The notes beneath the pieces were generated by a model. It ran no database searches. It saw nothing but the letters and a program-made list of their open reading frames with translations, and was not told the DNA's origin. From Natronomonas moolapensis 8.8.11 (GTDB lineage Archaea; Halobacteriota; Halobacteria; Halobacteriales; Haloarculaceae): a DNA stretch of 64,000 nucleotides. Each line of letters opens with the position of its first letter. Within the stretch, counting starts at the first letter, position 1. The position numbers were made by a program, and so were the translations under genes. The stretch spans positions 1,426,001-1,490,000 of the forward strand of contig NC_020388.1 in NCBI RefSeq assembly GCF_000591055.1. Reading direction: 5' to 3'. This document shows positions 39,376 to 61,932 of the stretch, piece after piece.

Positions 39376-41640
39376 ATGGCAACCGGGAGGGGGATAACCC
39401 GACGGGATTTCATTAAGTTGAGTATCGGAACCGTTGGAGCAGGAACGGTTGCCTCCGGGACGGCCACAGCCAGCAGTGGTAACTGGCCAACGTTTGGTCA
39501 CGACGAACAGAACCGTCACTACAACCCTGATTCAAGTCTAGATGGTGACTCCGCCTCGGAACGGTGGATGCTTAGTATCGGTGATAGGGCTAGTTCAGGT
39601 ATCCCCGTAATCGAGGGGGAGGTGTATTTCTCTGACTCATCTGGCCTCGTTTATCGAGTTACCGAGCAGGGTAACACGACCACGTATGATCAAGGCGTTG
39701 GATCGCTTCCGTCGGATCTACGCCTTCCGAGTGGAACATCGACACCAACCGTTACTGGTGGGCAACTGTTTGTTGGCGGGCTCGACAGTCATGTATACGC
39801 GATTGAGCGCGATACGGGTGACACGACCTGGTCGTTCGAAGCCGATAGTGCCATCTATACCTCGCCGACAGTCATCGGGGATCATGTGTATGTAGCGTCA
39901 GCGGATGGAACAGTTTATTCCGTCACCCGGGATTCTGGAGACGAATCATGGCGCTACCAAGTTGATGGTATGATTGCTACCGTACCCTGCTCTATTGATG
40001 ATGTATTAGCCGTGGCTACTCGAGACGGGGCTATTCATATAGTTGATATAGCCACTGGAGAAGGAACTGTTGCATTAGAGACAGACTCAGAAGTATTTGC
40101 GTCGCCAGTTGCTACCGAGGGTAATATATATTCTGTGACACAGAGAGGCGCTGTCTATGCTATTGACTCGACGGGAGGGACCGTTCAATGGGAGGCTGAA
40201 TTAGATCGAACAGTTACCAGAACACCCGCACTGACTGACGATCGGCTATATGTTGGAACCGAGGGCGGAACGATAGTTGCTATTGATATAGTTACTGGTG
40301 ACTCGCTTTGGGAAACTGCGGTGGCTGGTGAAATCACTACTGGACCCGTTGTGACTACTGATATAATCGCTGCCGGGACGGCGAATGGAACCATCCACGC
40401 GCACTCCATATCCGAGGGAGAGCCGCTATGGACATTTGATGCGGGAAATGCTATTACGACACCATTGAGTGTCGCCGATGACGTGTTGTATTTCGGTACA
40501 GAAATTGGCACAGTATACGCAATAACGAGTAGCTCCGGGTTCGCATATACTGCACAGACATTCGCTGGCTCAGCTGCATCGCGTGCGACGGCGACCGCTT
40601 CCGAAGTTCCTTCGCCGTTCCTCTGGATATCGGGCGGAATCGGAACACTCGTTGCAGCCGGGTACACTGGAAAGAGGCTGCTCAATAGGGGCACATCCAG
40701 TGAGTCATCGACGACACTCAAGGGCTCCAAGACAAATACAATGTTATCGGGCGATGCGCCTCCGATACGAGATAACAAATCAATGTCGGACAGCACGTCG
40801 AAATTACTCGGAGATGATGTCTCCTACAGTGACTTCGATATCAAAGAACAACTCGGAGCAGGTGGCTCTGCTGACGTCCACAAAGCCCAGATCATGACTG
40901 ATGGAACATCGCAGACAGTAGCTCTGAAAACACCGCGGACGTCCGGTGATGATACCGTTGACGCGTCTTCGTTCTCGGAGTTCTTTAACGAGGCAGAGCT
41001 CTGGAATAGCATCGACGATCACGACCGCATCGTCACCGTTCACGCCTGGGGTGAGACACCCCTCCCGTGGATCGCAATGGAGTATATGCAAGGTGGAACG
41101 CTACACGACAACGCAGCATCGTTATCGTTTGAGAATCTCTTCATCGAACTCGAGGGGATTTCTGAGGCGCTCCACCATGCGCATCGACATGGAATCACGC
41201 ACACGGACATCAAACCGGCGAATATTCTGTTCACCGAGTCGCCCACCGGTGGAATCGGAAAACTGACTGACTGGGGATTGGCGAATGTTCTGCTAGATCA
41301 CTCCATGAGCGTACACGGACTGACGCCAGACTATTCAGCTCCTGAACAGGTTCGCCCCGAGATGTATGGCGGTACGGATGATCGAACGGATATCTACCAA
41401 CTGGGAGTTGTCGCGTACGAACTATTTACCGGCAAACTCCCGTACGAAGGTGCGTCATACGCCGGTATGGTTAATTCGATTCTTAATGAAGATCCACAGT
41501 TACCCTCCGAGCTAAACCCGGAGTTGCCTAGCGAACTCAACGAGGTACTGCTAACCGCGATTGCCCGAGAGAAATCCGACCGCTACGAGACTGCGCTTCA
41601 TTTCCGCGATGACCTGCGTCGGGTATATCATTCAACCTGA
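39376..41640 (+). CDS. Tat-exported PQQ-propeller receptor Ser/Thr kinase
   Basis: This 754-residue protein begins with a twin-arginine signal (RGITRRDFIKLSIGTVGAG). Residues about 35-395 are a beta-propeller of PQQ-type repeats (YAIERDTGDTTWSFEAD; YVASADGTVYSV and so on) predicted outside the cell. One membrane helix follows (about 412-430), then a cytoplasmic kinase: Gly loop LGAGGSADVHKA (about 493-504), Lys518 in VALKTPR, HTDIKPANILF with Asp611, and DWG with Asp632. HRD is HTD, but the catalytic Asp, Lys and Asn are present, so it should be active. Signal and transmembrane helix give a receptor topology. Two pseudokinase receptors follow on the same strand. Confidence 0.8.
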   Translation: MATGRGITRRDFIKLSIGTVGAGTVASGTATASSGNWPTFGHDEQNRHYNPDSSLDGDSASERWMLSIGDRASSGIPVIEGEVYFSDSSGLVYRVTEQGNTTTYDQGVGSLPSDLRLPSGTSTPTVTGGQLFVGGLDSHVYAIERDTGDTTWSFEADSAIYTSPTVIGDHVYVASADGTVYSVTRDSGDESWRYQVDGMIATVPCSIDDVLAVATRDGAIHIVDIATGEGTVALETDSEVFASPVATEGNIYSVTQRGAVYAIDSTGGTVQWEAELDRTVTRTPALTDDRLYVGTEGGTIVAIDIVTGDSLWETAVAGEITTGPVVTTDIIAAGTANGTIHAHSISEGEPLWTFDAGNAITTPLSVADDVLYFGTEIGTVYAITSSSGFAYTAQTFAGSAASRATATASEVPSPFLWISGGIGTLVAAGYTGKRLLNRGTSSESSTTLKGSKTNTMLSGDAPPIRDNKSMSDSTSKLLGDDVSYSDFDIKEQLGAGGSADVHKAQIMTDGTSQTVALKTPRTSGDDTVDASSFSEFFNEAELWNSIDDHDRIVTVHAWGETPLPWIAMEYMQGGTLHDNAASLSFENLFIELEGISEALHHAHRHGITHTDIKPANILFTESPTGGIGKLTDWGLANVLLDHSMSVHGLTPDYSAPEQVRPEMYGGTDDRTDIYQLGVVAYELFTGKLPYEGASYAGMVNSILNEDPQLPSELNPELPSELNEVLLTAIAREKSDRYETALHFRDDLRRVYHST

Positions 41641-41815
41641 ATTCTGGTTTGTTAGATACCCCCGCTGAGATGCAAGGTTTCTTTGAGGGGGCTTAGGTGC
41701 ATTTGATACGGGGTTTAATGGCTATGGTGGAAAAACGTCATTCCGTGCACTAATTTAATATAATCGACACAAAATACTTTTAATCAGTGTTTGTAACCAC
41801 CTGACGAATGGGGAA

Positions 41816-43993
41816 ATGAGCCAATTCAGTTCAAAAACTACGGGGGGTCTCGGTAGGCGGGCTTTGTTACGAAAGTCAGTGGGTGTGGGGGTTGCATCGA
41901 CGATCGGCGTCCGAAGTACTAGAATAGCCGCAGCTGCCGGGGGTGACGAATTGTGGCGGTTCGAAGCTGACTCCATAATCGTGTCTTCTCCAACCGTGGT
42001 CGATAATACCGTTTATTTTGGAACTAATGGAAGTGATGTACACGCAGTAGACGCAGAAACTGGTGAAGAGCAGTGGCGGTTTGAAGCTGACCAGTACATA
42101 AATGCAACACCAACGGTCGTCGACGAAGTCCTATATATATCCAGTAATGATCATCATATCTATGCTCTTGACAGAACCAGCGGAGATGAATTGTGGCGTT
42201 TCGATACGGGTCATGTGAGCAGGTCATCGCCAACTGTCGCAGACGGGACGGTATTTGTAGGCAACGGAGACTCCGGAGGAAAAGACACTACAGGCGCTGG
42301 TCTCTATGCAGTTGGTGCAATCTCAGGGGAGGAAAAGTGGAAATTTGAAACTAACGATCGGATATCGTCTTCACCGGTCGTCAAAGACGATATTGTGTTG
42401 TTTGGTAGCTATGATGGAAATTTGTATGCGTTGAACTCCGAGACCGGCGAACAGAGATGGGCCAGTGAAACCGGTGGGGGGCAGTCTTCGCCAACAGTAG
42501 CAGACGAGACAGTCTATATTGGTGGATGGCAGGACGGAAACGTTTATGCGTTTGACGTAGACAGTGGTGATCTACGTTGGGAGTTTGAAACCGATGATAT
42601 TGTCAGTTCGTCACCAACAGTAGCTGCAGGATCCGTCTTTGTTGGGAGCGCCGATAACAACGTGTATGCAATCGATGCGGACAGCGGGGAACCGGAGTGG
42701 GTTTTTCAGACAGGTTCTACAGTAGCGTCATCACCGACTGTCGTAGGGGAACGGGTGTTTATTGGCAGTGGTGACGGAAACGTATACGCTCTTGATAGCA
42801 CTGAGGGCACCGAGATATGGCGATTCGAGACTAACGATGAAGTCTCCTCGTCGCCAATTGTCGTTGACGGTGTTGTATACATTGGGAGTCGGGAAGGGCG
42901 TGACGAGGGGATAATATACGCACTTGAAGCCGGTATCGACGGTTCTAGTGAGGGGTCTCGAGCACATGATGGTTCATTAAACCATCACGAGACATGGCGG
43001 CACGCAGGCCAAGACATCAATATCGACGCATTCTCCGGAGGCGATGACGGGGGTACGAATCCTGTCGCAGCGATATTCCGGCGTGCTAGTGAAGACACCG
43101 GTCTTGTTGGCACCATACTTGCCGCCGGAATTGCCAGCGGTGGGTATCTAACGTATAAATGGCGTCAATCTTCAAGAGAGAATGAGGAAAAGGCGACAGA
43201 GACTACGGGTAGCGTGGCAAATCCGTCGCATGCTGGGCCGGGGAATGGCGACGTCGGGATATCGTCCTACAGTGAGTTTGATTTCAGAGAAACTGTTAGG
43301 GAGGGATCTCAATATCAAATTGAGGCAGCCGTAACTCGGGGGGACCACCAGTCTGCCTGGGTCATCACATATAATTCACAGGATAGCGAGACTATTCAGG
43401 CGACAAATATCGAAGAATTCAATGACCGAATCGAACCCTGGACAAAATTCGAGGACCACCCACACCTGATCTCAGTCTACGGATATGGCACGGAGCCGTT
43501 ACCATGGGTCGCGGTCGAACCGGCAGACTATCCGACGCTTATTGAGACAGCTGCAGACTATTCGCTTTCACAGCGAATTGCATTTGTTGAGGAAGCGTGC
43601 GAAGCGGTTCACCATGTCTCTCGGTACGGATTCAATTACGACGTGCTTGCCCCCGAAAGTCTCCTAGTTACCCCCGAAGACACGCTGAAACTTCGAGGGG
43701 TCCTTGATTACATAACCCCGACAGAAAAAACGCCATACGAACCACCAGCGAAGAAACAAGGACAGACAGCTGAGAGTGCAGCTGTATATCGGCTCGGTGC
43801 AATAGGATACGAGATTCTTTCGGGGCAACCACTAGATGATGCTGGCTCGTCGGTAACCCCACCCTCAGAACGAAACCCAAAGTTACCGAAAAAACTCAAT
43901 AGAACTCTGTTAATGGCGCTAGCAGCAGATCCTGATGATCGTCATGAAACGGTACTCCATCTACGGGACGAACTAGATCAAGGTCTACGATGA
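41816..43993 (+). CDS. Tat-exported PQQ-propeller receptor with pseudokinase
   Basis: The 725 residues start with a Tat signal (GLGRRALLRKSVGVGVAST), then an eight-repeat propeller (ELWRFEAD...SSPTVVD...VYALD units about every 40 residues, 43-370), one membrane helix (429-448) and a kinase-fold domain (485-725). The kinase is degenerate: no Gly-rich loop, AWVITY where the Lys strand belongs, FNYDVLAPESLLV in place of HRDxKPxN (Lys and Asn lost) and LRGVLD in place of DFG. The C-terminal DDRHETVLHLRDEL is as in the active kinases. It probably modulates or anchors the neighbouring kinase rather than catalysing. Confidence 0.75.
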   Translation: MSQFSSKTTGGLGRRALLRKSVGVGVASTIGVRSTRIAAAAGGDELWRFEADSIIVSSPTVVDNTVYFGTNGSDVHAVDAETGEEQWRFEADQYINATPTVVDEVLYISSNDHHIYALDRTSGDELWRFDTGHVSRSSPTVADGTVFVGNGDSGGKDTTGAGLYAVGAISGEEKWKFETNDRISSSPVVKDDIVLFGSYDGNLYALNSETGEQRWASETGGGQSSPTVADETVYIGGWQDGNVYAFDVDSGDLRWEFETDDIVSSSPTVAAGSVFVGSADNNVYAIDADSGEPEWVFQTGSTVASSPTVVGERVFIGSGDGNVYALDSTEGTEIWRFETNDEVSSSPIVVDGVVYIGSREGRDEGIIYALEAGIDGSSEGSRAHDGSLNHHETWRHAGQDINIDAFSGGDDGGTNPVAAIFRRASEDTGLVGTILAAGIASGGYLTYKWRQSSRENEEKATETTGSVANPSHAGPGNGDVGISSYSEFDFRETVREGSQYQIEAAVTRGDHQSAWVITYNSQDSETIQATNIEEFNDRIEPWTKFEDHPHLISVYGYGTEPLPWVAVEPADYPTLIETAADYSLSQRIAFVEEACEAVHHVSRYGFNYDVLAPESLLVTPEDTLKLRGVLDYITPTEKTPYEPPAKKQGQTAESAAVYRLGAIGYEILSGQPLDDAGSSVTPPSERNPKLPKKLNRTLLMALAADPDDRHETVLHLRDELDQGLR

Positions 43994-44186
43994 GAGTGTT
44001 ATAATACTCTAATTTAAGTTATCTTCTGTAGAAATTAATAGATTAGTGAACCATTTCATGATAACCAGATCGGTGCCAGATATATTCAGTACCTCACCAA
44101 GGATCGCCAGTTAGTCGCATCTGGACCAATTCACAGATAACGAAAATAAAATATATTATGCAGGGAAGATAGAATCATGTATAACT

Positions 44187-44295
44187 ATGTCGGTGGGGGC
44201 TAATAGGAGAGAGGTACTAAGCATAATAAGTTCAGGTGTTGGTATAATATTTGGACTTAGTAACATTGGAAATGCACAAGAAATAACCAGAGAGG
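44187..44295 (+). pseudogene. 5' fragment of a Tat-secreted protein cut by a small IS remnant
   Basis: From the ATG the frame reads MSVGANRREVLSIISSGVGI then IFGLSNIGNAQEITRE, a clear twin-arginine signal peptide with Arg-Arg, hydrophobic core and Ala-x-Ala-like end. It is interrupted by the element beginning at 44296. Only the signal is left, so this is a third exported protein of the receptor cluster that was inactivated. Confidence 0.55.
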
Positions 44296-44558
44296 GAGCG
44301 TGTCATAGAATACGCCCCACTCTCTTATCGGTCTGGTTATCATTTTAATCCGTAACAGGTGTACAAGTGCCTGCACTTAGTGCACGGCTTTACGAAGCGG
44401 TTAGAGAATACCCGTCTATTTGTTGGTACTGACATTTTGTGTCTATCGACCATCGCGTGCCTCACAACGAACGGCTGCTGTGGGAACGGGTTCGACCGTC
44501 CCGGAGCTACTGGATCCGAATACGTGGGTGATCACGAGACCTATTCTATGACACGCTC
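44296..44558. mobile_element. Non-autonomous element, 263 bp, with GAGCGTGTCATAGAAT ends
   Basis: GAGCGTGTCATAGAAT (44296-44311) and ATTCTATGACACGCTC (44543-44558) are perfect 16-bp inverted repeats. The interior has only a short coding-like remnant (PALSARLYEAVREYPS) with stops, so it is an internally deleted transposon. No target duplication found. The same end occurs in the palindrome at 29182. Confidence 0.7.
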
Positions 44559-44758
44559 AATTTTAAGTAAAAAGAAGATAGATACCATGCTAATGCGCGG
44601 GTATTGGGAATTGGGGTTGCTCAACGGCAGTAATGGATGGACTCACCATGGTTTTGAAAAAACGTTAGCAGTCGAAACATCTAATGAAGGGCTCTGTTTC
44701 GAAAAAATCGGACTCAATCCCAGATGGACAGCTGGATCAACAAAGTGATCCTATAGAC

Positions 44759-46699
44759 ATGTTATCGAGACGGCATTTACTACGCACTTCAGCCTCCTTG
44801 GGTACTGCTGGGATAGTTGGCGTTGCTACGGTGGCTGGACAACAAGAAGAAACATTTCAAGCGAACAACGATCTGGTCAGTTTAGGGCTTTCTCCAGACT
44901 ACATTAGTTCGGGTAGATATGCTTCATCGCTCGAATTTGATGGAGAAAACAGATTGAAAAGACCGTTTCGTTTCTCCGGATACACACCTGAGGAAGAGCG
45001 ACTAAACTATGTCGAAACTGTCGAATCTACACGCCTCTCTGGCGAGGGCTGGCAGGGATTCTCACTAATACGAACCTTCGAATTCAATACGGAGACAGAA
45101 TATAGGATTGAACAGCGCTCTCTTGTCCCGCCGGAGGAACCACTCGTTTTAACCGAAATGATACTTGCAAATACCGGAGAAGAGTCACTTACTATTCGGC
45201 GACCGGATAATCATATACACAACGGTTGGGTTCTTGCTGTTGTCCCGCCGCTTGCAAATCCTGAGGGAACGTATCGGTATTCTATTGATGGGGATTCCCC
45301 TCAGAGTTTTGCGGAGAGCGACCTCTGGTATACCCATGAATTGACCGATTCAACGCATTTCATTACCCAGTTTGCGGACCGATACGGAATCACGCTGAGT
45401 TATTTAGGTGGTCATACGGATCCGGTTCAAGCCATCACCGATAACCGGGGGATCAACGGCTCCGATCTAGAGTACGAGAATAAATCGGAGTTACCTCGAA
45501 GCGAGGAAAACCCACCTGCTCGTGTGACCGAGGGCTTCAGCGTCGATACCATTGATTTCGGTGTTGATGGCCTTTCGTTGGATGCCGGTAAAACCGCCTC
45601 ATACACTCACTCGCTCAGTATTCATGAGGGGGGTGACGAAGCGATCAGCCGTGCAGAGGAACTTACCGAGAGAGCTAGCACTCTATCCGATGAGTCCCCC
45701 TCAATCTCTGCTCTTACTGGAGAGGGCAATGATTCGATAACTGGCGCGGTGTTCCGGCGCTTCTCAAACCCGGGGAATTCACCCCTACTATTGGGGCTTG
45801 GAGGAATGATGGGCGCTGGTGCAACGTATCTTGGATATCGAAGGCTACGCCGTGATACGAGTAGAGACACTTCTACAGAGGACAATCAAGAATCGATAGG
45901 ACGACAACCGACTACCGAATCTCAAGAAGTATCTCTTTCAGTCGACGACTACGAATCGCTTGAAATCATTGAGACTGTTCGAGAGTCCGATACAGTTCGA
46001 GTACAGAAAGCATCACCCGGTGAAACCCAGGTATGGGTCCTTACGTTGACTGTAGAACCGAATGAAACACTCAGCGCCTCCGATATTAACCACTTCGTCG
46101 ATACGGTCCAACCGTGGTCACAAATAAAGCCGCATCCGAATCTCTTGTCGGTAGTCGAGACTGGAGAGGAGCCTGTCCCATGGGCTGCAATTGAGCCGGC
46201 GGATCATCCCTCTCTCTCCGGCTATATCGGACAGATTTCGGTCGATACGTGTAGTAAGTGGCTTAAGCAGATCTGTGAAGCGTTACATCATACTTCCAGA
46301 TACGGGCTGGTTTATCAGAATCTTACAACAGATAATCTCTTATTACCCGATGATTCTAACGTAAAACTTCGTGGGCTGCTTGACGAATTCGAAGCGCGTA
46401 ACCCTTGGTATATGGCTCCTGAAGAATTCGATAATACAATAACCGAACAAAGTCTCGTGTATCGAACTGGGCTTGTCGGATACGAGCTATTAACTGGATC
46501 TCTTCCATATGGCTCGTATCCGGATGGAGATCCCCAGACTGTAGTTCAATCCAAGGAGTGTATAGCGTTATCCGAGCGATTGGAGTCTTACCAGACGGCA
46601 CTCGGCGACATATTGTCAGAAGCTCTTTCGCCATATCCCGAAGATCGCCACGAGACCGTCCTTCATCTCCGGGACGAGGTTGAGGAACTCCGCAAATAG
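44759..46699 (+). CDS. Tat-exported receptor with novel ectodomain and pseudokinase
   Basis: From the ATG at 44759 the protein (646 residues) has a Tat signal (MLSRRHLLRTSASLGTAGIV), a 300-residue extracellular domain that is beta-rich and not a PQQ propeller (WQGFSLIRTFEFNTETEYRI), a membrane helix (about 341-360) and a kinase-fold domain. The latter is degenerate: YQNLTTDNLLL in place of HRDxKPxN and LRGLLDEFE in place of DFG, with no Lys strand. A start at 44684 would add 25 residues before the Tat motif. The layout copies that of the 41.8-kb gene with a different sensor, which suggests sensor swapping on a common cytoplasmic module. Confidence 0.7.
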   Translation: MLSRRHLLRTSASLGTAGIVGVATVAGQQEETFQANNDLVSLGLSPDYISSGRYASSLEFDGENRLKRPFRFSGYTPEEERLNYVETVESTRLSGEGWQGFSLIRTFEFNTETEYRIEQRSLVPPEEPLVLTEMILANTGEESLTIRRPDNHIHNGWVLAVVPPLANPEGTYRYSIDGDSPQSFAESDLWYTHELTDSTHFITQFADRYGITLSYLGGHTDPVQAITDNRGINGSDLEYENKSELPRSEENPPARVTEGFSVDTIDFGVDGLSLDAGKTASYTHSLSIHEGGDEAISRAEELTERASTLSDESPSISALTGEGNDSITGAVFRRFSNPGNSPLLLGLGGMMGAGATYLGYRRLRRDTSRDTSTEDNQESIGRQPTTESQEVSLSVDDYESLEIIETVRESDTVRVQKASPGETQVWVLTLTVEPNETLSASDINHFVDTVQPWSQIKPHPNLLSVVETGEEPVPWAAIEPADHPSLSGYIGQISVDTCSKWLKQICEALHHTSRYGLVYQNLTTDNLLLPDDSNVKLRGLLDEFEARNPWYMAPEEFDNTITEQSLVYRTGLVGYELLTGSLPYGSYPDGDPQTVVQSKECIALSERLESYQTALGDILSEALSPYPEDRHETVLHLRDEVEELRK

Positions 46700-46751
46700 G
46701 TCCCTGAGTCGTTTCATTCTAAATACGCCATTAGATAAGCAAAATCTATTT

Positions 46752-47743
46752 CGCTCTTGTGAAGCAGATTGTTGATAGCGAGAGCTGCGGCTGAAAGTCG
46801 AAGAGAGCAAGGGCACCGCGACAGCGGTGCCCGATATGTTCCCAATACGCCGGTTCGTGTCGGAATCGGCTGCAGCGGACCTGCTCCAACAGGTTCGCTG
46901 GCGTGATGGCGTGGAGTGCCCCCGCTGCCGTTCTGACCTGACGGTCAGAAACGGCAGCTATCGGGTGTATCAACGGTATTTGTGTGAGAATTGCGGTCGG
47001 ACGTTCAACGAGAAGACCGGCACGATCTTTGCTCACGCGAAGCTCTCGCTGAAAGAGTGGTACTTCACGATTTACGTCTTCTTGCGGTTTAACACGAGCA
47101 TTCGGCAGATTGAGGCGGAACTCAATCTTTCCTACAGAACGGTGAGACGACGTGTCGAGCGCTTCGCCAGAGCGCTTGATTCGCCTTCGATCAGGCTGTC
47201 TGGACCGGTCGAAATCGACGAAGTGTACGTCTCGGCTGGCCTCAAAGGCCGCGAGCGTGACTCCGGTCACGCTCGCGTGGCCTGTCCACGCGTGGACGAG
47301 GATCGTACGACGGCGACAAACCGCCGGTATTCACCTTGGTCGATCGTGGCTCGGACGATCGGTACGTCGTGCCAGCGAAATCCGCCGAGGAATCGACCAT
47401 TCGACTCCTGCTCGCCAACTGCGAACAGGAGTCAATAACCGTCTATACCGACGGATTTCAAGCGTACGAACCGCTCGAAGACGACGCATTCACCCGCGAA
47501 TACGTCGTCCACGGCGACGGAGAATACGCTGACGGCGACATCCACGTCAACACCTGCGAGAGCCACGCGTCGCTGACGCGACGGTGGCTCTCGCCCCACC
47601 GAGGAGTGTCAAAAGACAAGCTAACGCCGTATCTCAGATCCTTTCAGCTCCGCTGCGAACTCTACAGAAAACGAGGTGACGAAGCACTCAAACATGCTTT
47701 CGACGCCGCCCTCTGAAAATCAACAACGTGCTTCACAAGAGCG
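46752..47743 (+). mobile_element. IS1595-type element, 992 bp
   Basis: Ends TCGCTCTTGTGAAGCA and TGCTTCACAAGAGCGA are perfect 16-bp inverted repeats counting one base beyond each coordinate. The transposase inside is broken. This element is the likely parent of the MITEs at 14362 and 39180. Flanking 8-bp sequences do not match. Confidence 0.7.
46836..47716 (+). pseudogene. IS1595-family transposase, frameshifted
   Basis: The first frame carries a zinc ribbon (VECPRCRSDL...LCENCGRTF), HTH-like helices and the first catalytic Asp (GPVEIDEVYVSAGLKGRER). It then loses frame near 47265, and the second frame supplies FTLVDRGSDDRYVVPAKSAE, Asp in ITVYTDGFQAYEP and Glu in VNTCESHASLTRRWLSP. The shift makes it inactive. 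Confidence 0.75.
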
Positions 47744-48008
47744 ATTGTCTTATTTAGTTTTAGGTCAAAACATTTTTAAGAGAGATCTCAACTGATTTTT
47801 GTACAGGGAAGAAATATCACCGCTGTCACGCGGTTCGTTAACTAAAGACGAATGGTCTGATCGGGTTTCCTAATAACCAATCACCAGCTAAAATATATAA
47901 CAAATCCACAGGTGATCTTGCGAACAGGCTCCGTGTTGCTCCGAATTATGTATCTTATCTACCTCCGCTTGACTGATAACCCTCCCAACGATCTAGCGAT
48001 AGAGAACC
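47744..48008. other. Intergenic region between IS1595 and the DnaK-kinase gene
   Basis: No gene is seen. It contains TTAACTAAAGACGAATGG at 47838-47855, which matches the right ends of the small repeat elements at 53030-53245 and 57184-58104. Confidence 0.45.
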
Positions 48009-51000
48009 TCAAATAGACTCAAACACCTCTTTTAGATCGTCTCGGAGATATAACACGTGTTCGTACCGATCAGCTTTGCGACGCTTGAGGGCTTTCAGAA
48101 TAATTTCGTCGAGTGCTGCTGGGATATCAGCATGCTCGCTCGGCGGAGCCAAGTATTCATTTTGAATCTTGTTTACTATCTCGAATGTCTGGCCCGTGAA
48201 CGGTGGTCGCTCCGTAAAGAGCTCGTACGATACAGCCCCAAGCTGGTAGATATCGGTAGCGGTATCGGTGTCACCGTAGGCTTCAGAATCAAACTGCTCG
48301 GGAGCAGCGTACTGCGGTGAGATCCCTTCAACACTTTGAGAGTGGTCAAGCAAGTGTTTTGAGAGTCCCCAATCAGCAACTTTTGGTGGATCCCATGCAT
48401 CCTCAACCTCTCGAAACAGAATATTCTCGGGCTTCAAATCAAGATGAGCGACGCCGCGATCGTGGGCGTGACGTACCGCACGGGTTATCGTCAGCGCTGT
48501 CCAGCATTTTTGCCGTATATCCATCCCGGCAATACGCTCGCCAAAATGCCCGCCATCCATGTACTCCATTCCGATCCATGGCAATGGCTCGGACCCGTAG
48601 TCAACAACGGAAACGATGTGGTCGTGGTCATCAAGTTGTTGCCATAATTTAGCTTCGTCTACTATTTGGTTAACAGCTTCAGCGTGGAGTGTTCCCTTCA
48701 TTCTGGGTGTTTTGATCGCCAGTCTTAGTCGACCATCGTCAGTTTCGATGGTAGCTCGGTGGACATCGGCGTTTCCACCCTGGCCGAGTGGCTCTTCGTA
48801 ATCGAAGTCCTCGTAAGTGAATGAGCGTCGAGGTGGACTTGGAATCGTCTCTGGAACGGGGCGGGTGCCACTGCTGACCACGACTTTTGCCTCACGTTTG
48901 ATATTTCCATCCCGCTCGTATCCGACTTCCCTAACCCGTACCACCCGACCCTCTGTGAGTTCACTTTCGGTTTTTGACCAGACTTTGTGCCGATACGGAT
49001 CCGTAGTACTGCCGGGATCCGGATCGATAACTGCGTACCCAGCTGCATACAGCGTCTCGTCAAGCCGTTTGATTCCGGCGTCGAGGTTCGCGGTGGTCAG
49101 CTCACTCTGCTGGAGCTTGTTTCTGAGGTCCTCTAAAGCTGTATAGAACCGTAGTATCTCATCGGGTACTGCAGCCGTTTCTTGATCAAAATTATCCGGG
49201 AAATAGTCAAGCAGCTCCTCGATCTGATTCGTAATCGGCTGGATATGATTGTCCGCTGGGGCTGTCACGTGGGCGTTATCTTGATAATAGACCTGAGCTC
49301 GGGTGAGGGTGTTCCGGATATCGATCGTTCCGTCGACTAACGTCTCTAAGAGCTTCTCTTCGTCCTCAAGCTCGAATGGTTCATTTTCTTTGTCCCACTC
49401 AGACTCGATAACCTTCTCAAGCATCGAACGGAGCTGTTCCTCATTTTTGAATTTCCCCGGCCCACGAGCAAGCTCGGTTAGAAGTTGCTCGTCGGTTTCA
49501 AAATCGACTGCCTGATCAACAAGTAAATCTATGAGCTTCGTCGTACTTTCCAGATCAGCTGCTTTTTCAATGATCTTCGTTTCGTTCTCAAACTCGACAG
49601 GGCCCTCGAGAAGTAGTGTTTCAAAACGATCCTCAATCGAGGCTAGAGCGGGAAGCGAGCGCTGGCTAAAGATTTCTGATCCAGTTACCGGCGTATCCGA
49701 AAGCTCATCAATCGTAATCGATTCCTCATCATCAGTTTCGATATTTCGTGCTTCGACAGCGATGATGCCGTTTTCATCTATATCAAGGGTGATCTCGATC
49801 TGTGGAACGCCAGCTGCCGCAGGTGGGATATTTGAGAGGGTGAATTCTCCAAGTAATTCGTTTTCTGCGGCGATCTCGCGTTCGCCTTGGAATATCCGAA
49901 TCCGAAGCCGAGTTTGATCGTTATGACTGGTCGTAAAAACTTTTGACGCCGCTGTCGGAATCGTTCTGTTCTTCTCGGTAAGTCGCTCAAAGAGCCCGCC
50001 TTCGACCTCAATCCCGAGGCTCAGCGGCGTAACGTCTAATAGGATGATATCGTCAACCTTGCCTGAAAGTACCCCGCCTTGCACTGCAGCCCCTTTCGCA
50101 ACGGCCTCGTCGGGATTGACGCTTTTATTCGGCTTCTGGTTGGTAAATTCCTGGATTTTGTTCTGAACCTGCGGCATCCGCGTTGAACCGCCCACGAGAA
50201 CAACCTCGTCGATGTCATTTACCGGGTAGCCGGCATCGTCAAGCGCCTGCTCAGTCACCTGGATGGTCTGTTCAAGTAGGTCGTTTGTGATCGACTCAAA
50301 TTCCGCTCGAGAGAGCTTTTGCTCAAGATCAATCGGCCCGTCTCCGGTTGTGGCAATAAACGGGAGGTTGATTGCCGTTTCCATTCGTGAAGATAGCTCA
50401 AGCTTTGCTTCCTCAGCAGCCTCGGCTAGCCGCCGGAGCGCCTGCCGGTCGTCGCGGAGGTCGACCCCGTGTTCGTCTTCGAAGGAGTCGGCCAGATATT
50501 CGATGATCGCCTGGTTCCAATCATCCCCACCGAGGGTATTATTTCCGTCAGTCGTGACAATTTCGAAGACACCACCACCGAGGTCGAGAACCGAGACACT
50601 GAACGAGCCGCCGCCGAGGTCGTACACGAGTACTTTCTGGTCTGATTCGTCGTCGTAGCCGTACGCCATCGCCGCCGCCGCTGGCTCATCAATGATGCGG
50701 TCGACCTCAAGGCCGGCTAGCTCGCCAGCGTCCTTCGTTGCTCGGCGCTGGCGGTCGTTGAAATAGGCTGGGACCGTGATAACCGCCTTTTCAACCTCAT
50801 GACCGAGAGACTCCTCGGCATTTCGTTTGATTTTCTTGAGTACCATCGCCGAGATCTGCTCGGGCGTGTACTCGTCGCCGCCCGCCTCGACGGTGTAGCC
50901 GTCCCCCCCCACGTGACGCTTGATCGATTCGACCGTATCCGCAGGATTTTGTATCGCTTGATCCTCTGCAGGCTTGCCGACCAGCGGCTCGCCCTCATCT

Positions 51001-51137
51001 GTGAAGGCGACGACCGATGGCATCGTTCGTTTGGCTCCACCGAGAGCGGTAATCTTGGGAGAGCCATTTTCCATTACCGCAACTGCTGAATTGGTTGTCC
51101 CGAGATCAATTCCAATTATATCACGCCCGGGGACCAT
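48009..51137 (-). CDS. DnaK-GrpE-like-Ser/Thr kinase fusion, 1042 residues
   Basis: Residues about 5-385 are an Hsp70 ATPase domain ([53 protein letters not shown]). Residues about 390-485 are a substrate-binding beta domain. A helical linker with four [12 protein letters not shown]-like repeats (about 512-600) replaces the usual lid. Residues about 630-757 resemble GrpE, ending DPYRHKVW...[20 protein letters not shown]. Residues 775-1042 are an active-looking Ser/Thr kinase with Gly loop [14 protein letters not shown], Lys809, [11 protein letters not shown] (Asp900) and DWG (Asp922). In the Hsp70 domain, the phosphate-2 motif reads [10 protein letters not shown]; the Asp that is normally at the second S position (Asp201 of E. 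coli DnaK) is missing, which may lower ATPase activity. The chain thus joins chaperone, exchange factor and kinase. It is transcribed toward the receptor genes and away from the ISH3-like element. Confidence 0.85.
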
Positions 51138-53300: not shown

Positions 53301-56300
53301 ATGGGTGTCGGAGATGATCAAGAAGGAGATGAAACGATCGATCTCTCAGACATCTTTCTGTACTCTCTCCTCGGTGCTGAAGCCATTCATGTGCTCTTTT
53401 TGATTGGGAGTACCGTTCTCGAAGAAGGATTTCTTTCCGAGGTCCTACTCTGGGGGGGGCTTCTCACTATTCTGCTAGTCCCAGTGTTGGGGTATCTCGA
53501 TCTTCGACGTCTCCGTACAGCGGGCTACTGGGAACCGCATGGCCGGGGCTCATTCTGGGTTCTTGGTATGCTTTTCCCGTTCGTAAGCCCCTCCGTCGTG
53601 ATCGCGTACGTTCTCCGTCGACGCGAACTCGTGACACACGACGGTTTCTGGGGACGATGGGCATACGTTAGCGGTACGGCGGTCGCTGCTTTGACCCTCT
53701 CTATTGTCGGATTACTCATCTTTGGGGATCCATCCACCGAGGGCAACACAATAGGACAAAACGTTGCAGTGTCGATCTTTATCGCATTCACGCTTCTACC
53801 GAGCCTGACGACATATTTCGATCTCCAGTATCTACGCCGAGCGTGGAGCCACGACTTCTCATTTATAAACTGGCTCTGGGTTCCTATGATGCTCGTATGG
53901 TTTTTCCAGATCATATTCTTCACCGCTTACGGATACTGGCGAAGGAAATTCTTGGACGGTAAGCGATGGATCAAAACCACCGAGGACACCCTCAACAAGA
54001 CCCGTTCACAGCTTGAAGAAGGTGTTAGTGCGCTCGAAAGCGACCAGTACGACAGCGCGCTGTCGTGTTTTAATCGTGCAGAGCAGTCACTAGACAACGC
54101 GAACGCGATCGTTAGGAGATTTATCGATGAGTCCTCTGATGAGTACCCGAAACACGCCCAGAAGGTGATTTCAGAAATCTCCGAGATGCAGCGGCATATA
54201 GAGGGTAATCGAGCGCATTCTGAGGCCGCAATCGCACTCGAAGCCGGTCTAGATGCGCTCGATGACAACAAGATCGAGTCGGCTATCGATTCGTTCGAAA
54301 CGGCTATCGACCGAAGCGAGACAGCACTCGGCACGGTTGATGAGCAAGCCACCACAAACAAAATCCGTAAAACATCGCTGCGTGCACGCAACGAACTTGA
54401 GGCAACCCTCGAACAATATATCGACGAGAGAATACTCCCACTCGAAAACCGGATTGAGACCACTTACGAGGATGGTATTTCGGCGCTCAAAGCTGGCAAC
54501 TACGACGAGGCCGCTGACTGCTTTTCCGAAGTTGACGACTACCTCAGTGAACTTCAATCACGGGTCAAAGCCTACGGTCTCAATCGGGACCTACCAGTCG
54601 ACAGTGACGACGTCGCCGAGAAGATGACCACCGTCGAGCGACAGCGTATCGTTTCGGAGGAACTCGATCCGTTGGCCGACCAGATCGAATCGATGTATGA
54701 GGAAGGTGTGTCGGCACTAGAAGCTGGCAATTACGAGGCGGCATTAGACCGGTTCGAAGAGGCTAAGGATGCTATCGAACAGTTTCAGTCAGTCCAAGCG
54801 AACCACGGTTTTGACCGCGATCCACCGATAACTAGCGACGAGGTAGTCGATCAAATCGACACCGTTGAATGCGAACACGAGCGGGCAGCGATCGAAAGCT
54901 GCCTCAGTCGCGTTGGGGAAGCTCGTTCCGAAGGCAAATCGGCGATGGGCGCAAACGAGTACGACCGTGCCGTCACAACACTCGAACACGCTCGCGAAGA
55001 ATTTAAAGACGTATCGTCGCTCATCGCCAAATCATCTCTTAATGAATGGGATCTTGAGGAGCGTGAATCAACGCTGAATGAGCTATACGAGACTGCGGTC
55101 ACAGAGCGCGAAACACAACGATATCGTGACTCCAAAGAGCGTGGTGAAACACTGCTTGATGAGGCTATCGCCAGCGCTGAGGCGGGGAACTACGCCACTG
55201 CAATCAAAACCTGCAACGAGGCCCATGAGGCCTTCGAAGAGGCTCAAGCGGTCGCTGAAGAGTTATCGGTCGTCGGTGGGGACCAAATTGAGGATCGACT
55301 TGATGACATTTCCGACCTGCTTTCGGACTACCAAATCCGGGAACTGAGCGAGCGCGTCACTGATGCGCGCGTCTCCGTGGACGAGGGTGACCGCGAGCAA
55401 TACCTTACGGCTGCCAACGACTTAGATGAGCTTACCGCAGAACTAGACGGACAGGAAATCGACCGCGAGCGTGATCTTGCGGTTCTCCGCGAAGAAGCCG
55501 AGCTTGAGCGCCTCAAGGCGTTGTTGCTTGCCGAACGAGAGCGATCTATAGAAGCAATTGAAGCGTTCCGAGACGGTGACTACGCGACCGCCCGAGATTA
55601 TTTCGAGGACATACAGTCGGTTGTTGCCGGAATCCGAGCCGATGCGGAGGAGGCCGGGGTCACGGATTACGATGGAGTTATCGAGCAGCTTGAATCGACT
55701 TGTGAGCGAAACGCGACTGCGGCAAGACGAGGGGCATTGGGTATCGATGATGATCCGACAGTCACGCCAATCACGGTCTCGATGGGTAATAGAAATGATT
55801 CTAGCCAGTCACCAGATGACTCTGTTTCTGTACCGGTAGCCACTGACGACCCCGCTTCATCGATACGTCGATCCGGTGGAGCGTCCTTGGATGACGCACT
55901 ACTGGATGCACTACCTGTGGCGGAGGTTAGGGGCCATATTGGATCGGGCGGTAACGCGGATGTCTATGAGGTTCGCCTCGACTCCGGGGAGCGAGCGGCG
56001 CTGAAGGTGCCACGCTGGCAAGGGACGCTCTCGGCAACGTTGATCGATGAGTTCGAGAACGAAGCCGAAACGTGGAGCAAACTCGATGAGCATGACGGAA
56101 TCGTTTCAGTGATCAACTGGGACAATGAGCCACTCCCGTGGTTGTTGCTGGAGTATCTACCTGCATCTCTGGCAAATCGGATGGATTCACTATCGGTCGA
56201 TTCAGGTGTCAGTGTGCTCGTCGATGTGGCTGATGCGTTAGAGTTTGCCCACGGTCGTGGCGTCGTCCATCTTGATGTCAAACCTGAGAATGTCCTGCTA

Positions 56301-56690
56301 ACTGACACTGACACCCCAAAGGTTGGTGATTGGGGGCTCTCACAAGTTGTCCTCAACCACAAAAGAACCGGGATGGGACTGACACCCCCTTATTCCGCAC
56401 CAGAACAACTCTCGGACGAGTATGGCGATATCGACCGAAGGACTGACATCTACCAGCTGTCAGCACTTGCTTACCGCGTCCTGACGGGGCGGGTACCGTT
56501 TGACGCCGATCGTCCGATTGACCTGCAACAGCAGATACTTCGCGAAGATCCGACCCCGCCTTCAACAATTAACCCGGCACTAGACCCGGCTATTGATGAT
56601 GTACTAGTGAGGGGACTTGCTAAAAACCCGGACGATCGGTATGAGGCTGCTGTCCTCTTTCGAAACGCGATCTCATCGCTGGCCAGGTGA
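53301..56690 (+). CDS. Membrane protein with MIT/TPR-like repeats and Ser/Thr kinase
   Basis: The 1129 residues start with about six membrane helices (residues 20-225, e.g. IHVLFLIGSTVLEEGF). The middle part (about 235-830) has eight degenerate two-helix repeats of about 80-90 residues with a core like EEGVSALEAGNYEAALDRFE, YEDGISALKAGNYDEAADCF and SEGKSAMGANEYDRAVTTLE; they resemble TPR or MIT hairpins. The kinase (871-1129) is intact: Gly loop GHIGSGGNADVYEV, Lys902 (ALKVPR), Asp992 in HLDVKPENVLL and DWG with Asp1010. It shares GxGGNADV and the DDRYEAA...FRN C-terminus with the other kinases here. The repeats may dock the MIT-type or ESCRT-like partners encoded downstream. Confidence 0.8.
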   Translation: MGVGDDQEGDETIDLSDIFLYSLLGAEAIHVLFLIGSTVLEEGFLSEVLLWGGLLTILLVPVLGYLDLRRLRTAGYWEPHGRGSFWVLGMLFPFVSPSVVIAYVLRRRELVTHDGFWGRWAYVSGTAVAALTLSIVGLLIFGDPSTEGNTIGQNVAVSIFIAFTLLPSLTTYFDLQYLRRAWSHDFSFINWLWVPMMLVWFFQIIFFTAYGYWRRKFLDGKRWIKTTEDTLNKTRSQLEEGVSALESDQYDSALSCFNRAEQSLDNANAIVRRFIDESSDEYPKHAQKVISEISEMQRHIEGNRAHSEAAIALEAGLDALDDNKIESAIDSFETAIDRSETALGTVDEQATTNKIRKTSLRARNELEATLEQYIDERILPLENRIETTYEDGISALKAGNYDEAADCFSEVDDYLSELQSRVKAYGLNRDLPVDSDDVAEKMTTVERQRIVSEELDPLADQIESMYEEGVSALEAGNYEAALDRFEEAKDAIEQFQSVQANHGFDRDPPITSDEVVDQIDTVECEHERAAIESCLSRVGEARSEGKSAMGANEYDRAVTTLEHAREEFKDVSSLIAKSSLNEWDLEERESTLNELYETAVTERETQRYRDSKERGETLLDEAIASAEAGNYATAIKTCNEAHEAFEEAQAVAEELSVVGGDQIEDRLDDISDLLSDYQIRELSERVTDARVSVDEGDREQYLTAANDLDELTAELDGQEIDRERDLAVLREEAELERLKALLLAERERSIEAIEAFRDGDYATARDYFEDIQSVVAGIRADAEEAGVTDYDGVIEQLESTCERNATAARRGALGIDDDPTVTPITVSMGNRNDSSQSPDDSVSVPVATDDPASSIRRSGGASLDDALLDALPVAEVRGHIGSGGNADVYEVRLDSGERAALKVPRWQGTLSATLIDEFENEAETWSKLDEHDGIVSVINWDNEPLPWLLLEYLPASLANRMDSLSVDSGVSVLVDVADALEFAHGRGVVHLDVKPENVLLTDTDTPKVGDWGLSQVVLNHKRTGMGLTPPYSAPEQLSDEYGDIDRRTDIYQLSALAYRVLTGRVPFDADRPIDLQQQILREDPTPPSTINPALDPAIDDVLVRGLAKNPDDRYEAAVLFRNAISSLAR

Positions 56691-58113: not shown

Positions 58114-60108
58114 CTACCCGACGTCCATTGCAAGCCCTTGGCCGTCCACGTAGAACTGCTCGGCTCGGCCATCCGCTTCTAGCCGCTCAAAAGCACGTTT
58201 GATGATGTGACGGTCGAATCCATGCTCTGTGGAGATCTCTTCGAGACCAATGGTTTCGCGACCAATCTCGTTGAGATACCCAGATTGAATCGTTTCGATG
58301 CACGCCTCGACACGCTCAGCACTGACAGCCCGCTCAAACAACGAGATATTGTCAGCGACAACCGGATCAGACTCATCGTATATGAGACTGCCATTACGGA
58401 GGTCAACAAGACAGATGCTCACTTGTCGGCTGTAGTGGGTGCGTGCAAGCTCATCGGTCGCGATTTTTGATTTAACCTGGTCGGTCCAACCGGTCGGAGA
58501 TGCGATACCGAGTAGATATGTGACGTCTTTTCGATCAGCCTCGCGGACAGCATCGTTAACGAAACCCAATAGATCCTCGATATCGGCAGCGGTCGCATCA
58601 AACCCGTTCGCTGCGTGGGCTTCTAAATCTGAGTATACTGTCGCTTCGATAATCATCTCCGTCTGTTCGGAGAGGCCGAGATACTGACTTTCCGTTATTT
58701 CATACCGTGTCGTTGGATTCGTCGGATAACTCTCGACATGCTCGCCGTTTTTGTCATCCAATAACTGCACCATATGTGGTGCCCGGTTACGACGCTGGCT
58801 GCGCCGCTCCCAGTAGCCGTCTGGAATGTTGTAATTCCGGTCGGGAAGCCGCAAGGAGTCGATCTCGTGCATCTTCGTATCGAAGCGACCGACATAATCC
58901 ATCTCGAAGAGTTTCGCTGTCGAAGCACTGACAACTTCGGAGCCGTCAATCCCATCCACTTCTGCGGCAGGGTCGCTCCCTGAACTGATGGATCGCCCTA
59001 TGTCATCGACCTGTCTCTCGAGATCCTGTTGACGCTCCTCGAGACGATCACGAGCATGCTCTATTTGTTCACGCTCGCGCTGGAGCCGATCGATTTCCGC
59101 TCGGAGCTCCGAGCGTTGTTCAGTGATACGCTTGAGCTCGCTCTCCACGATCTCCGTAGCGTCTTCACGTCTGCTGTCGCTGCTCTGTTGTGCCTTTTGC
59201 CGAGCCTGTTCAAGTTGTTCAATGTTTTCGCCGAGCTGTGTCTCAAGTGTCTGAGTCCGCGCAATAGCAGTTTGTAACTCGACAAGGACCTCGTCATCGA
59301 GGCCACCAATGTCCTCGAGTTCAGCGCGGACCTCTTCAATATCAACAGTTTCGCTGGCAAGGTCACGCTCGACGCAGTGAAGTTGCGATTCGAGCTGTTT
59401 TCGCTGCTGCTGGAATCCCGTTTGCAACGATGTTTCGAGGTCGTTCAGCTCTGCTTGGAGCATCTCCTTGATTTGCTCACGTTCGCTTGAGGCGTCAGCA
59501 ACGGCTTCGATTGCCTCTTCGATGCTCTCAACCATATGCTCCATTCCATGCGTTTCGACATAGACGAAGAAGCCCTGCCGGATGCGTTCGCGGCGATCGT
59601 TGTATCGGTCGACGAGCCGCTCGATTACGTCCTGTTGGACCTCGGGGTTATCGATGAGGTCATCCATGTTGGCAATCTGCGTGGAGGTGTACTCTTGAAC
59701 GAGTTCGTACACTTCTCCTTCCATCCGGCGGATACGCCCCTCAATCTGCTCTTGATCGAGCGCATCAAACTGCTTGTAGCGATCAAACTCAACGACAGCT
59801 TGCAGTTCGGCCTCAATGAAGTCGTCCTCCATCGCTTTTGGCAGTTCTCCTTCGGCATAGAAACTCGCTGCAAGTAACAACCGTGCAAGTCGAATCTCCC
59901 CTCGCAGTCTATTCTCCTCGCTACTAGTGAGGAAGTCGCTGCACTCTTTACCGAACTCCCAGTTGAGTTCTTCTTCGTTCGATTTGATCTCGTTATATCG
60001 TTCGATTCGCGACCGATCCGGCATCCGCTTGAGCGCTGCGAGGTCCTCGTTTAGTATTCGTTCGCTCGTGTACGTGAGTTCGTTGAGCCAGTCTTGACAG
60101 TCGGTCAT
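58114..60108 (-). CDS. Long coiled-coil protein with winged-helix-like C-terminus
   Basis: This 664-residue acidic protein has an N-terminal helical domain (about 1-200), a coiled coil (about 210-385, Glu/Gln/Arg heptads such as LKRITEQRSELRAEIDRLQR) and a globular C-terminal part (about 410-600, LLDDKNGEHVESYPTNPTTR; GIASPTGWTDQVKSKI). The end, about 615-664, reads GLEEISTEHGFDRHIIKRAF ERLEADGRAEQFYVDG, like a winged helix. The gene overlaps the preceding one by ATGA. No enzymatic motif is seen. It lies back to back with the ESCRT-like operon and shares its operator type, so it may be a scaffold or effector. Confidence 0.6.
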   Translation of the reverse strand: MTDCQDWLNELTYTSERILNEDLAALKRMPDRSRIERYNEIKSNEEELNWEFGKECSDFLTSSEENRLRGEIRLARLLLAASFYAEGELPKAMEDDFIEAELQAVVEFDRYKQFDALDQEQIEGRIRRMEGEVYELVQEYTSTQIANMDDLIDNPEVQQDVIERLVDRYNDRRERIRQGFFVYVETHGMEHMVESIEEAIEAVADASSEREQIKEMLQAELNDLETSLQTGFQQQRKQLESQLHCVERDLASETVDIEEVRAELEDIGGLDDEVLVELQTAIARTQTLETQLGENIEQLEQARQKAQQSSDSRREDATEIVESELKRITEQRSELRAEIDRLQREREQIEHARDRLEERQQDLERQVDDIGRSISSGSDPAAEVDGIDGSEVVSASTAKLFEMDYVGRFDTKMHEIDSLRLPDRNYNIPDGYWERRSQRRNRAPHMVQLLDDKNGEHVESYPTNPTTRYEITESQYLGLSEQTEMIIEATVYSDLEAHAANGFDATAADIEDLLGFVNDAVREADRKDVTYLLGIASPTGWTDQVKSKIATDELARTHYSRQVSICLVDLRNGSLIYDESDPVVADNISLFERAVSAERVEACIETIQSGYLNEIGRETIGLEEISTEHGFDRHIIKRAFERLEADGRAEQFYVDGQGLAMDVG

Positions 60109-60644
60109 TGTTGATCAGGTGCTTGACTTGCTGCGTATTCGGTCAATTCGGCCTCGAAAAACTCTGCGAGAAACGATGGGGCCGGCGGATATCCGTTGAT
60201 ATTGATTTGGGCGACCACCTGTCCCTCTGTCTCGTTCAGTCTATAGCCTACTTCCGCACGTCCCTTCTTAGTGTATACTTCATATTCGTTTCGCGCAGCT
60301 GATTGTAGGACCGCCTTCTTCTTAGACAGAATATACTCAACGAACGTTTCTACTGCATCTATTGACGCAGCGATCCGCTGCTCTACCGTGACGCTCTCGG
60401 GTTCAACGTCCGTGTCAACCGGTTCAAGCCGGCAGATATCAACCTGCTGTTCAGGGACCTTGGCGACTAATTGCTCATACAGCTCGTCACGATCAACTCC
60501 TTCTGCGATGCGGACAAGCCCGCTGGGGCGGTTGATCTCTCCCTCGTCCCAATTATTAAACAGGTACTCCGCACGCTTTCGTTCTGCATCTTCCTCATAA
60601 TCGACAATATAGAGGTATCGCCCTTCGTTGTTATCTTCGGACAT
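60105..60644 (-). CDS. Protein of unknown function, 179 residues
   Basis: The start at 60644 (MSEDNNEGRYLYIVDYEEDA) has GGGAGG about 7 nt upstream as a ribosome binding site; a longer frame to 60749 would lie over the operator. It is acidic, with RKRAEYLFNNWDEGEINRPS, a helical centre and the strand VGYRLNETEGQVVAQININ. It overlaps the long coiled-coil gene by four bases, so the two are coupled and probably form one complex. Confidence 0.55.
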   Translation of the reverse strand: MSEDNNEGRYLYIVDYEEDAERKRAEYLFNNWDEGEINRPSGLVRIAEGVDRDELYEQLVAKVPEQQVDICRLEPVDTDVEPESVTVEQRIAASIDAVETFVEYILSKKKAVLQSAARNEYEVYTKKGRAEVGYRLNETEGQVVAQININGYPPAPSFLAEFFEAELTEYAASQAPDQQ

Positions 60645-60763
60645 GGATGCCTCCCTTTGAGGGTGCCCCAAACTCTCCCCATTTGATGATGTTTGTATCG
60701 CTGGACAGTTGGCCGATTGGTCGTCCCACACTTGGATTCTAGTGGCCACCTACATATATTTAC

Positions 60764-61266: not shown

Positions 61267-61932
61267 ATGGAACTACGAGATTGGGTTCAGGAACGATTTG
61301 GCACCGCAGATACAGAAACGCTCCTTGACGAGAGCGTCTACGGACAAAACGAACTACGGTCTGACAAAAAGAAGCTTGAACAAGGTCTGAAACAGCTTGA
61401 AAGCGATATGGACACCCACTCGAAAAAGTACCAGAAGCTACTGGAAAAGGGTGCCGAGGCCGACGAAATGCGACGCCGACAGTACGCACAGAAGGCCAAA
61501 TTCGAGAAGAAAAAATACGAGATTAAAAAGAAGAAACACAAGGCAAACAGCATCAAACTCGGGACGATCATCTCTATCGAAGGGATGCGCGAAGTCATGA
61601 ATATGCACGAGAGCCAAGAGCTTAGCCTTGATGAGGCGATGAGCCAAGATATCAATGCACAAGAAGTTCAAAGCGAGATCATGGACCAAATGGCGCAGTT
61701 TGGTCTCGAACTAGAGGATATGCAGCAGGTTCAAGATGCTCTCGATGTAGAGATCCTTGATGAGGATCTTGAACAGGGAGCTTCCGAAGAGCTCGAAGCT
61801 ATGGAGAAGATGGCAGCCGGCGAAATCTCCAGCGAACAAGTTGATGTCGAGGAAGACATGGAAGTGGAAGCTGACGACGTTAGCGTTGATGTCGATATCG
61901 AGGAAGACATGAACGAGACGGACGTGTTCTAA
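61267..61932 (+). CDS. ESCRT-III/Snf7-like coiled-coil protein
   Basis: The 222-residue protein has a short amphipathic start (MELRDWVQERFG), a long basic helical pair (about 28-105, KKKLEQGLKQLESDMDTHSK; EKKKYEIKKKKHKANSIKLG), further helices (about 105-160) and a very acidic tail (DMEVEADDVSVDVDIEEDM). This basic-core, acidic-tail layout is that of ESCRT-III/CdvB proteins, which polymerise on membranes. The family call is by layout and by the Vps4-like ATPase encoded 6 bp downstream; no clear MIM motif is seen. A plain coiled-coil adaptor remains possible. Confidence 0.5.
   Translation: MELRDWVQERFGTADTETLLDESVYGQNELRSDKKKLEQGLKQLESDMDTHSKKYQKLLEKGAEADEMRRRQYAQKAKFEKKKYEIKKKKHKANSIKLGTIISIEGMREVMNMHESQELSLDEAMSQDINAQEVQSEIMDQMAQFGLELEDMQQVQDALDVEILDEDLEQGASEELEAMEKMAAGEISSEQVDVEEDMEVEADDVSVDVDIEEDMNETDVF

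Follow-up and report, generated by a model that had tools for sequence, protein, structure and literature searches.

We analyzed three consecutive genes, named here K1, K2 and K3, located at positions 39376-46699 of a 64-kb stretch of DNA from the haloarchaeon Natronomonas moolapensis 8.8.11. This whole stretch, hereafter the window, spans 1426001-1490000 on the genome's single contig of 2.91 Mb, and feature coordinates are positions in the window. The three genes open an AT-rich (51.6% GC), insertion-sequence-rich island of about 34 kb. As an initial annotation of the DNA had indicated, each of them encodes a twin-arginine (RR) signal, an ectodomain, a single probable membrane stretch and a C-terminal kinase-type domain. 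The features of this region are the following.

39376..41640, + strand: K1, with a twin-arginine translocation (Tat) signal, a PQQ-type beta-propeller, one likely transmembrane (TM) segment and an active-looking Hanks kinase domain (about 40825-41637)
41816..43993, + strand: K2, with a Tat-type RR signal, a PQQ-type propeller, one likely TM segment and a pseudokinase domain (about 43268-43990)
44187..44295, + strand: start of a truncated open reading frame (ORF) with an RR-type export signal (NRREVLS...NAQEITRE), read from the sequence as the remnant of a fourth exported gene
44296..44558, no strand assigned: element of 263 bp resembling a miniature inverted-repeat transposable element (MITE), with perfect 17-bp terminal inverted repeats GAGCGTGTCATAGAATA, from repeat analysis
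44684..46699, + strand: K3, with an RR signal, a beta-rich ectodomain (about 44840-45745), one likely TM segment and a pseudokinase domain (about 45941-46696)

An alternative upstream start at 39316 would give K1 a longer ORF, and 44759 is the likelier start of K3. The twin-arginine motifs are RRDFIKL in K1, RRALLRK in K2 and RRHLLRT in K3; only K1 passed the cutoff of the NCBIfam model TAT_signal_seq (18.2 versus 16.7 bits). Ahead of the kinase domain, each protein displays one best hydrophobic stretch followed by Lys/Arg (residues 431-449 in K1, 428-446 in K2 and 366-384 in K3), which is likely to form a single membrane helix. The RR signal and the Lys/Arg residues behind the membrane stretch would place the ectodomains outside the cell, and this arrangement argues against a cytoplasmic location.

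K1 has the features expected of a Hanks-type kinase: it matches Pfam Pkinase (PF00069) with 122 bits for a cutoff of 31.7, and its P-loop, Lys, HxD, DFG/DWG and APE motifs are all present (GAGGSADV, VALK, HTDIKPAN, DWG and APE). Together with a PQQ/BamB match, this agrees with its earlier description as an active-looking kinase carrying a PQQ propeller. K3 matches Pfam Pkinase with 39 bits. No Pfam kinase model matched K2, which was aligned throughout with a profile of the island's own kinases (299 bits, K2 being itself one of the eight profile seeds). In the corresponding positions, K2 reads REGSQYQI, VITY and YDVLAPES, has no DWG and shows TPYE in place of APE, and K3 reads RESDTVRV, VLTL and YQNLTTDN, has no DWG and keeps APE. 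The P-loop, the beta3 Lys, the HxD Asp and the DFG/DWG motif are thus missing in both proteins, which also have a shortened activation segment in common. The motif comparison and the kinase-domain alignments bear out the annotated mixture of active and inactive kinases built on a common C-terminal module.

Some proteins called pseudokinases do catalyze, such as SelO and WNK, and one could wonder whether K2 and K3 use an unconventional mechanism of this kind. K3 indeed has a Lys in strand beta2. However, since the beta3 Lys, the HxD Asp and the DFG Asp are lost together, K2 and K3 are neither WNK-like nor SelO-like; none of the active variants considered was matched by their motifs and, given also the shortened activation segment, we regard catalysis by K2 or K3 as very improbable.

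The kinase domains of K2 and K3 are 38% identical, their bases differ at about half of the positions, and the two proteins group together in every tree, both on long branches. PQQ/BamB matches were obtained for K1 and K2 and none for K3, in line with the different ectodomain that had been noted for the third gene. In K2 and K3, unrelated ectodomains have thus been swapped onto one shared type of pseudokinase module. Their identity at codon positions 1, 2 and 3 of the kinase domain is 0.494, 0.657 and 0.322, respectively, a stop-free pattern in which conservation follows the order 2>1>3. In simulations that let the K1 domain drift neutrally until its identity had fallen to 60%, 0 of 400 runs remained stop-free. 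This pattern indicates that both genes evolve under purifying selection; close orthologs of K2 or K3 were not found, so that the ratio of nonsynonymous to synonymous substitutions (dN/dS) between orthologs gave nothing. For K3, AlphaFold predicted a complete two-lobed kinase fold (mean predicted local distance difference test score, pLDDT, 93.9; the input alignment was made up of active relatives), the nearest solved folds being PknB/Stk1-type kinases. K2 and K3 hence correspond to the definition of pseudokinases, that is a kinase fold whose catalytic residues are lost and which is kept by selection.

These results also bear on the idea that K2 and K3 are decaying relics. The many insertion sequences of the island, the truncation of the neighboring exported gene and the lack of any counterpart of the island's FHA-like gene (described below) in ten sampled genomes of the same genus would fit with such a decay. 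Yet two long uninterrupted frames that are about 38% identical to each other do not, nor does the confident fold of K3, and the neutral simulation and the codon-position pattern largely refute it; decay is therefore a highly unlikely explanation.

The ectodomain of K3 did not match any Pfam model, and its AlphaFold model is poor (pLDDT 46.5, from an alignment of only 4 sequences). A Foldseek search with this model retrieved the YidC periplasmic domain and galactose-mutarotase-like sugar enzymes (best E 7e-5, TM-score about 0.45), a mere hint of a beta-supersandwich fold and, with low confidence, of a sensor binding sugar or protein. A few homologs of this ectodomain come from exported or adhesin-like proteins that are not kinases.

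Between K2 and K3, the initial annotation had seen a fourth exported gene cut by a MITE. An element with terminal repeats does lie behind the truncated exported ORF; on the other hand, no target-site duplication is visible around 44296-44558 and no remainder of the gene was recognized downstream. The 263-bp element is single-copy in the genome at the blastn level, and its terminus has near-matches at six further genomic sites versus none for a reversed control pattern. Insertion of the element into the exported gene is thus plausible.

Full Tat-PQQ-TM-kinase proteins are rare, being found in at least 7 genomes among the 472 searched (four families). A pseudokinase version is present in four of the seven, namely our own genome (K2) and those numbered here G357 (motifs VAVA, HLHLKP and DWWRG), G234 (HSAGNGRV and HLGLTP) and G421 (HLELTP and SGWG). 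In three of these four, K1/K2, G357 and G234, the pseudokinase adjoins an active PQQ kinase, and the residues lost differ. In G357, the two genes of the pair overlap by 4 bp and lie in that genome's own locus of ESCRT (endosomal sorting complex required for transport) genes, about 4 kb from an ESCRT-III-like gene. Viral contigs yielded two weak kinase matches only. A search of plasmids gave a Halapricum PQQ kinase of the reverse layout, with the kinase first and no export signal.

Two other arrays of PQQ kinases were observed. One member (13177-15504 of its stretch) of a three-gene array in genome G479 has the Lys of the catalytic loop replaced (HLDLVPSN) and an altered P-loop, and could possibly represent an early step towards a pseudokinase. 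In genome G213 (C42:50001-90000), seven kinase-like proteins form an array, several of them with PQQ repeats and none with the HxD aspartate (HGAL, HGYL, HGGI or HLSL types), which by its motifs reads as a pseudokinase cluster in another haloarchaeon.

Tandem PQQ kinase paralogs have in common a patch of 30-50 codons, from helix C to the hinge, whose DNA identity is 89-95%, in G234 and G357 far above that of the surroundings (loci compared: L087 750-5457, L084 4497-9154 and L111 7410-12362). In the G234 pair, 32 of 32 residues are identical from the end of alphaC to the hinge versus 56% over the rest of the kinase domain, and the patch DNA is 95% identical versus 66-74% across the active and pseudo relatives of G357 and G372. 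The G357 pair shows 91% identity in the patch versus 55% elsewhere in the kinase domain. A cross-genome control revealed that the patch is also better conserved in general, the within-genome excess being strong in G234 and moderate in G357. This general conservation undercuts high third-position identity as a proof of gene conversion; local gene conversion is nevertheless the likely origin of the patch. The patch matched in G234 and G357 sits on the N-lobe/hinge side, the face at which PknB forms back-to-back dimers. The match at this surface may be maintained by sequence exchange between the two partners.

In a first kinase tree, each foreign pseudokinase stood beside its own active partner and a single pseudokinase clade was rejected by the approximately unbiased (AU) test (p=0.005). 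We treat this signal with caution because the block of exchanged sequence that tandem paralogs have in common may have distorted the tree: after removal of the patch and of very long rows, a single clade was no longer rejected (p=0.30; 0.43 for G357 and G234 alone). The repeated independent origin of the pseudokinases suggested by the first test was consequently dropped as a conclusion. The active/pseudo pair would be an old one whose members exchange sequence locally, or it would have arisen more than once, and both possibilities stand; either way, live and dead partners would go together.

The initial annotation covered part of the locus, since five more kinase genes together with ESCRT-, FHA- and PP2C-type genes are found in the same island. 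These further features are listed here.

46746..47750, no strand assigned: insertion-sequence remnant with zinc-ribbon transposase-like ORFs, between K3 and K4 (ORF list and our own reading)
48009..51137, - strand: K4, fusion of HSP70, a GrpE-like part and an active-looking kinase, 1042 aa (Pfam and motifs)
53301..56690, + strand: K5, with a polytopic membrane N-terminus, a TPR-like coiled region and an active-looking kinase, 1129 aa (Pfam and motifs)
58114..60108, - strand: coiled-coil protein, candidate arCOG09748 component of an ESCRT locus (gene context and description)
60105..60749, - strand: candidate arCOG08177 component of an ESCRT locus
61267..61932, + strand: candidate ESCRT-III-like protein of a small coiled-coil family (position beside Vps4 and published locus type)
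61939..63090, + strand: Vps4/CdvC-like AAA ATPase with an N-terminal MIT-like region (CdvC model)
63087..63827, + strand: FHA-like protein and candidate for arCOG13166 (by its position and by an alignment in which the motifs LG..D..VSRK and N-G-V are conserved)
beyond the window end: K6, a Tat-PQQ-kinase
beyond the window end: K7, a kinase without recognized sensor
contig positions 1497066-1499147, beyond the window end: K8, a kinase with two copper-protein-like domains (our own reading)

Seven matches to PF00069 above cutoff were obtained in the 2.91-Mb genome, all between 1.466 and 1.498 Mb. When K2 is added, the kinases and pseudokinases detected in the genome number eight, all of them encoded in the island, and six of the kinases are active-looking. 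The chaperone and exchange-factor-like part of K4 could be a sensor of the attached kinase. K8 starts with its kinase, followed by an RR-type membrane segment and two halocyanin-like domains, and could be a redox receptor kinase of inverted layout.

The Vps4-like ATPase aligned with the CdvC model over residues 11-377 (E=4e-52), yet under the equivalog cutoff, and a PP2C phosphatase beside the FHA-like gene scored 263.8 bits with a Stp1-family model (curated cutoff 230). The genes at 58114-60108 and 60105-60749 are companions of Vps4-like genes in many haloarchaeal loci and have no significant Pfam matches; they are probably arCOG09748 and arCOG08177, respectively, of the published ESCRT survey. 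As far as the available part of this survey goes, its Halo_FHA loci combine a Vps4-like ATPase, a small ESCRT-III-like gene, an FHA-like gene and two accessory genes with Ser/Thr kinase (STK) and phosphatase (STP) genes, the latter two in some of the loci (Makarova et al., mBio 2024, PMC10936438). Judged by its gene content, the island matches this locus type, to which a Vps4 ATPase with an MIT-like N-terminus also belongs; the identities of the ESCRT-III-like and FHA-like proteins are putative. Halo_FHA-type loci are present in Halonotius, Haloquadratum, Halorhabdus, Haloglomus and Halobaculum species, and the FHA-like protein was matched in 19 of 394 genomes of the order. This ESCRT/FHA/PP2C context is a better clue to the output of K1-K3. 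A defence system was also considered and dismissed, as PADLOC matched only generic kinase or AAA models (PD-T4-6, mad6, IetA), which are unspecific.

We tentatively propose that K1-K3 do the surface sensing for a phosphorylation island linked to an ESCRT system of the Halo_FHA type, with the pseudokinases as co-receptors tuning an active kinase, a reading to which we give somewhat less than an even chance. K1 would be a Tat-exported single-pass receptor kinase with its PQQ-type propeller outside and its kinase domain in the cytoplasm; K2 and K3 would adopt the same topology and act as pseudokinase co-receptors through dead yet folded kinase domains. The propeller of K2 or the ectodomain of K3 would sense a ligand or the redox or envelope status, and hence different external cues, and the signal would reach an active partner when the kinase folds touch, turning this partner on or off. 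This partner could be K1 in the first place, possibly K6 or others; with six active-looking kinases in the island, the partner of K2 and K3 need not be K1. The resulting phosphorylation would control the ESCRT-III/Vps4 machinery, with the FHA-like protein as its reader and the neighboring PP2C phosphatase to undo it. Topology, the choice of partner and the contact with it are inferred here, as are the direction of control and an output to ESCRT. Pairing is favored because K2 and K3 are under purifying selection and because the tandem active/pseudo Tat-PQQ-TM-kinase pair recurs in G357 and G234; the hetero-oligomeric signalling suggested by the initial annotation is thereby supported only indirectly.

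K2 and K3 could instead be adaptor or scaffold receptors whose dead folds dock substrates or FHA/ESCRT proteins at the membrane, kinase activity being unchanged. The fold is retained though catalysis is lost, a motif of the C-terminal lobe (DDRHETVLHLRDE-type) is conserved between K2 and K3, and several active kinases nearby would need no activator. We nonetheless consider a scaffold rather unlikely: that a pseudokinase repeatedly stands right next to an active PQQ receptor kinase fits better with a pairwise regulator. One could also assume that the receptors sense the envelope or redox state in general and that their genes merely share the island with the ESCRT genes, their output being unrelated to ESCRT. 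This would agree with an island full of insertion sequences whose GC content departs from the 64.5% published for the single 2.9-Mb chromosome of N. moolapensis (PMC3623002), as well as with the PQQ kinases of G476 and most of those of G479, which lack an ESCRT gene in the stretch examined. But this island houses every Hanks kinase of the genome, and kinases adjoin Halo_FHA-type loci in several genera and, in its available part, in the published survey (PMC10936438), so that an output unrelated to ESCRT appears unlikely.

Several observations weigh against the co-receptor proposal. The hydropathy of the membrane stretches is low (1.23 in K1, 1.25 in K2 and 1.03 in K3). Active/active PQQ kinase tandems, found in G372, G476 and G479, are as common as active/pseudo tandems, and in G234 the pair and the ESCRT genes are on separate contigs, which makes their linkage hypothetical. 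The matched patch is also seen in the active/active pair of G372 and is absent from our own trio (34% for K1/K2). Finally, the FHA-like protein had no match among Pfam and PDB profiles, nor did the ESCRT-III-like protein among Pfam and PDB sequences.

A parallel can be drawn with eukaryotic receptor pseudokinases such as HER3/ErbB3, in which a dead receptor kinase stands beside live relatives. K2 and K3 likewise stand beside a live receptor kinase, whereas their ectodomains are not homologous to that of HER3 and hetero-dimerisation with allosteric control of a partner is here a proposed model. The boldest version, in which Tat-exported propeller receptors form kinase/pseudokinase hetero-dimers like HER2/HER3, the partners exchange sequence to keep their contact matched and ESCRT is controlled via phospho-threonine and FHA, is speculative and, taken as a whole, decidedly unlikely. 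The PASTA kinases PknB/Stk1 resemble the present proteins as the closest solved kinase folds, by their Stp1-family PP2C partner and, probably, as single-pass receptors. Here, however, the kinase is C-terminal and not N-terminal, the signal is of the Tat type and a propeller or beta-rich ectodomain replaces PASTA; the NCBIfam PknB equivalog scored 188 bits for a cutoff of 450, and no PASTA repeats were found. Like K2, the ActPs1 pseudokinases of actinobacteria combine a pseudokinase with a PQQ-type domain, which is C-terminal to the pseudokinase in the available excerpt of their description, where pairing with an active kinase is not described (PMC12599244). The propeller of K2 is N-terminal, behind an export signal.

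The association of kinases with ESCRT in Halo_FHA loci is already known from the survey cited above (PMC10936438), the available part of which treats Ser/Thr kinases generally, with no mention of Tat-exported PQQ receptor kinases, receptor pseudokinases or active/pseudo pairing. What is new is that receptor pseudokinases sit next to an active receptor kinase and that such a tandem is found again in two further haloarchaeal genomes; in the literature searched, we came across neither archaeal receptor pseudokinases nor a pairing of such proteins with a live receptor. Little is known about archaeal transmembrane signalling via Ser/Thr kinases. Should live receptors be gated by dead ones, archaea would possess allosteric kinase/pseudokinase receptor pairs. 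A small and complete set is moreover available in the island, with sensors, kinases, phosphatase, phospho-reader and ESCRT-III/Vps4, for a direct test of the phospho-control of archaeal ESCRT in haloarchaea.

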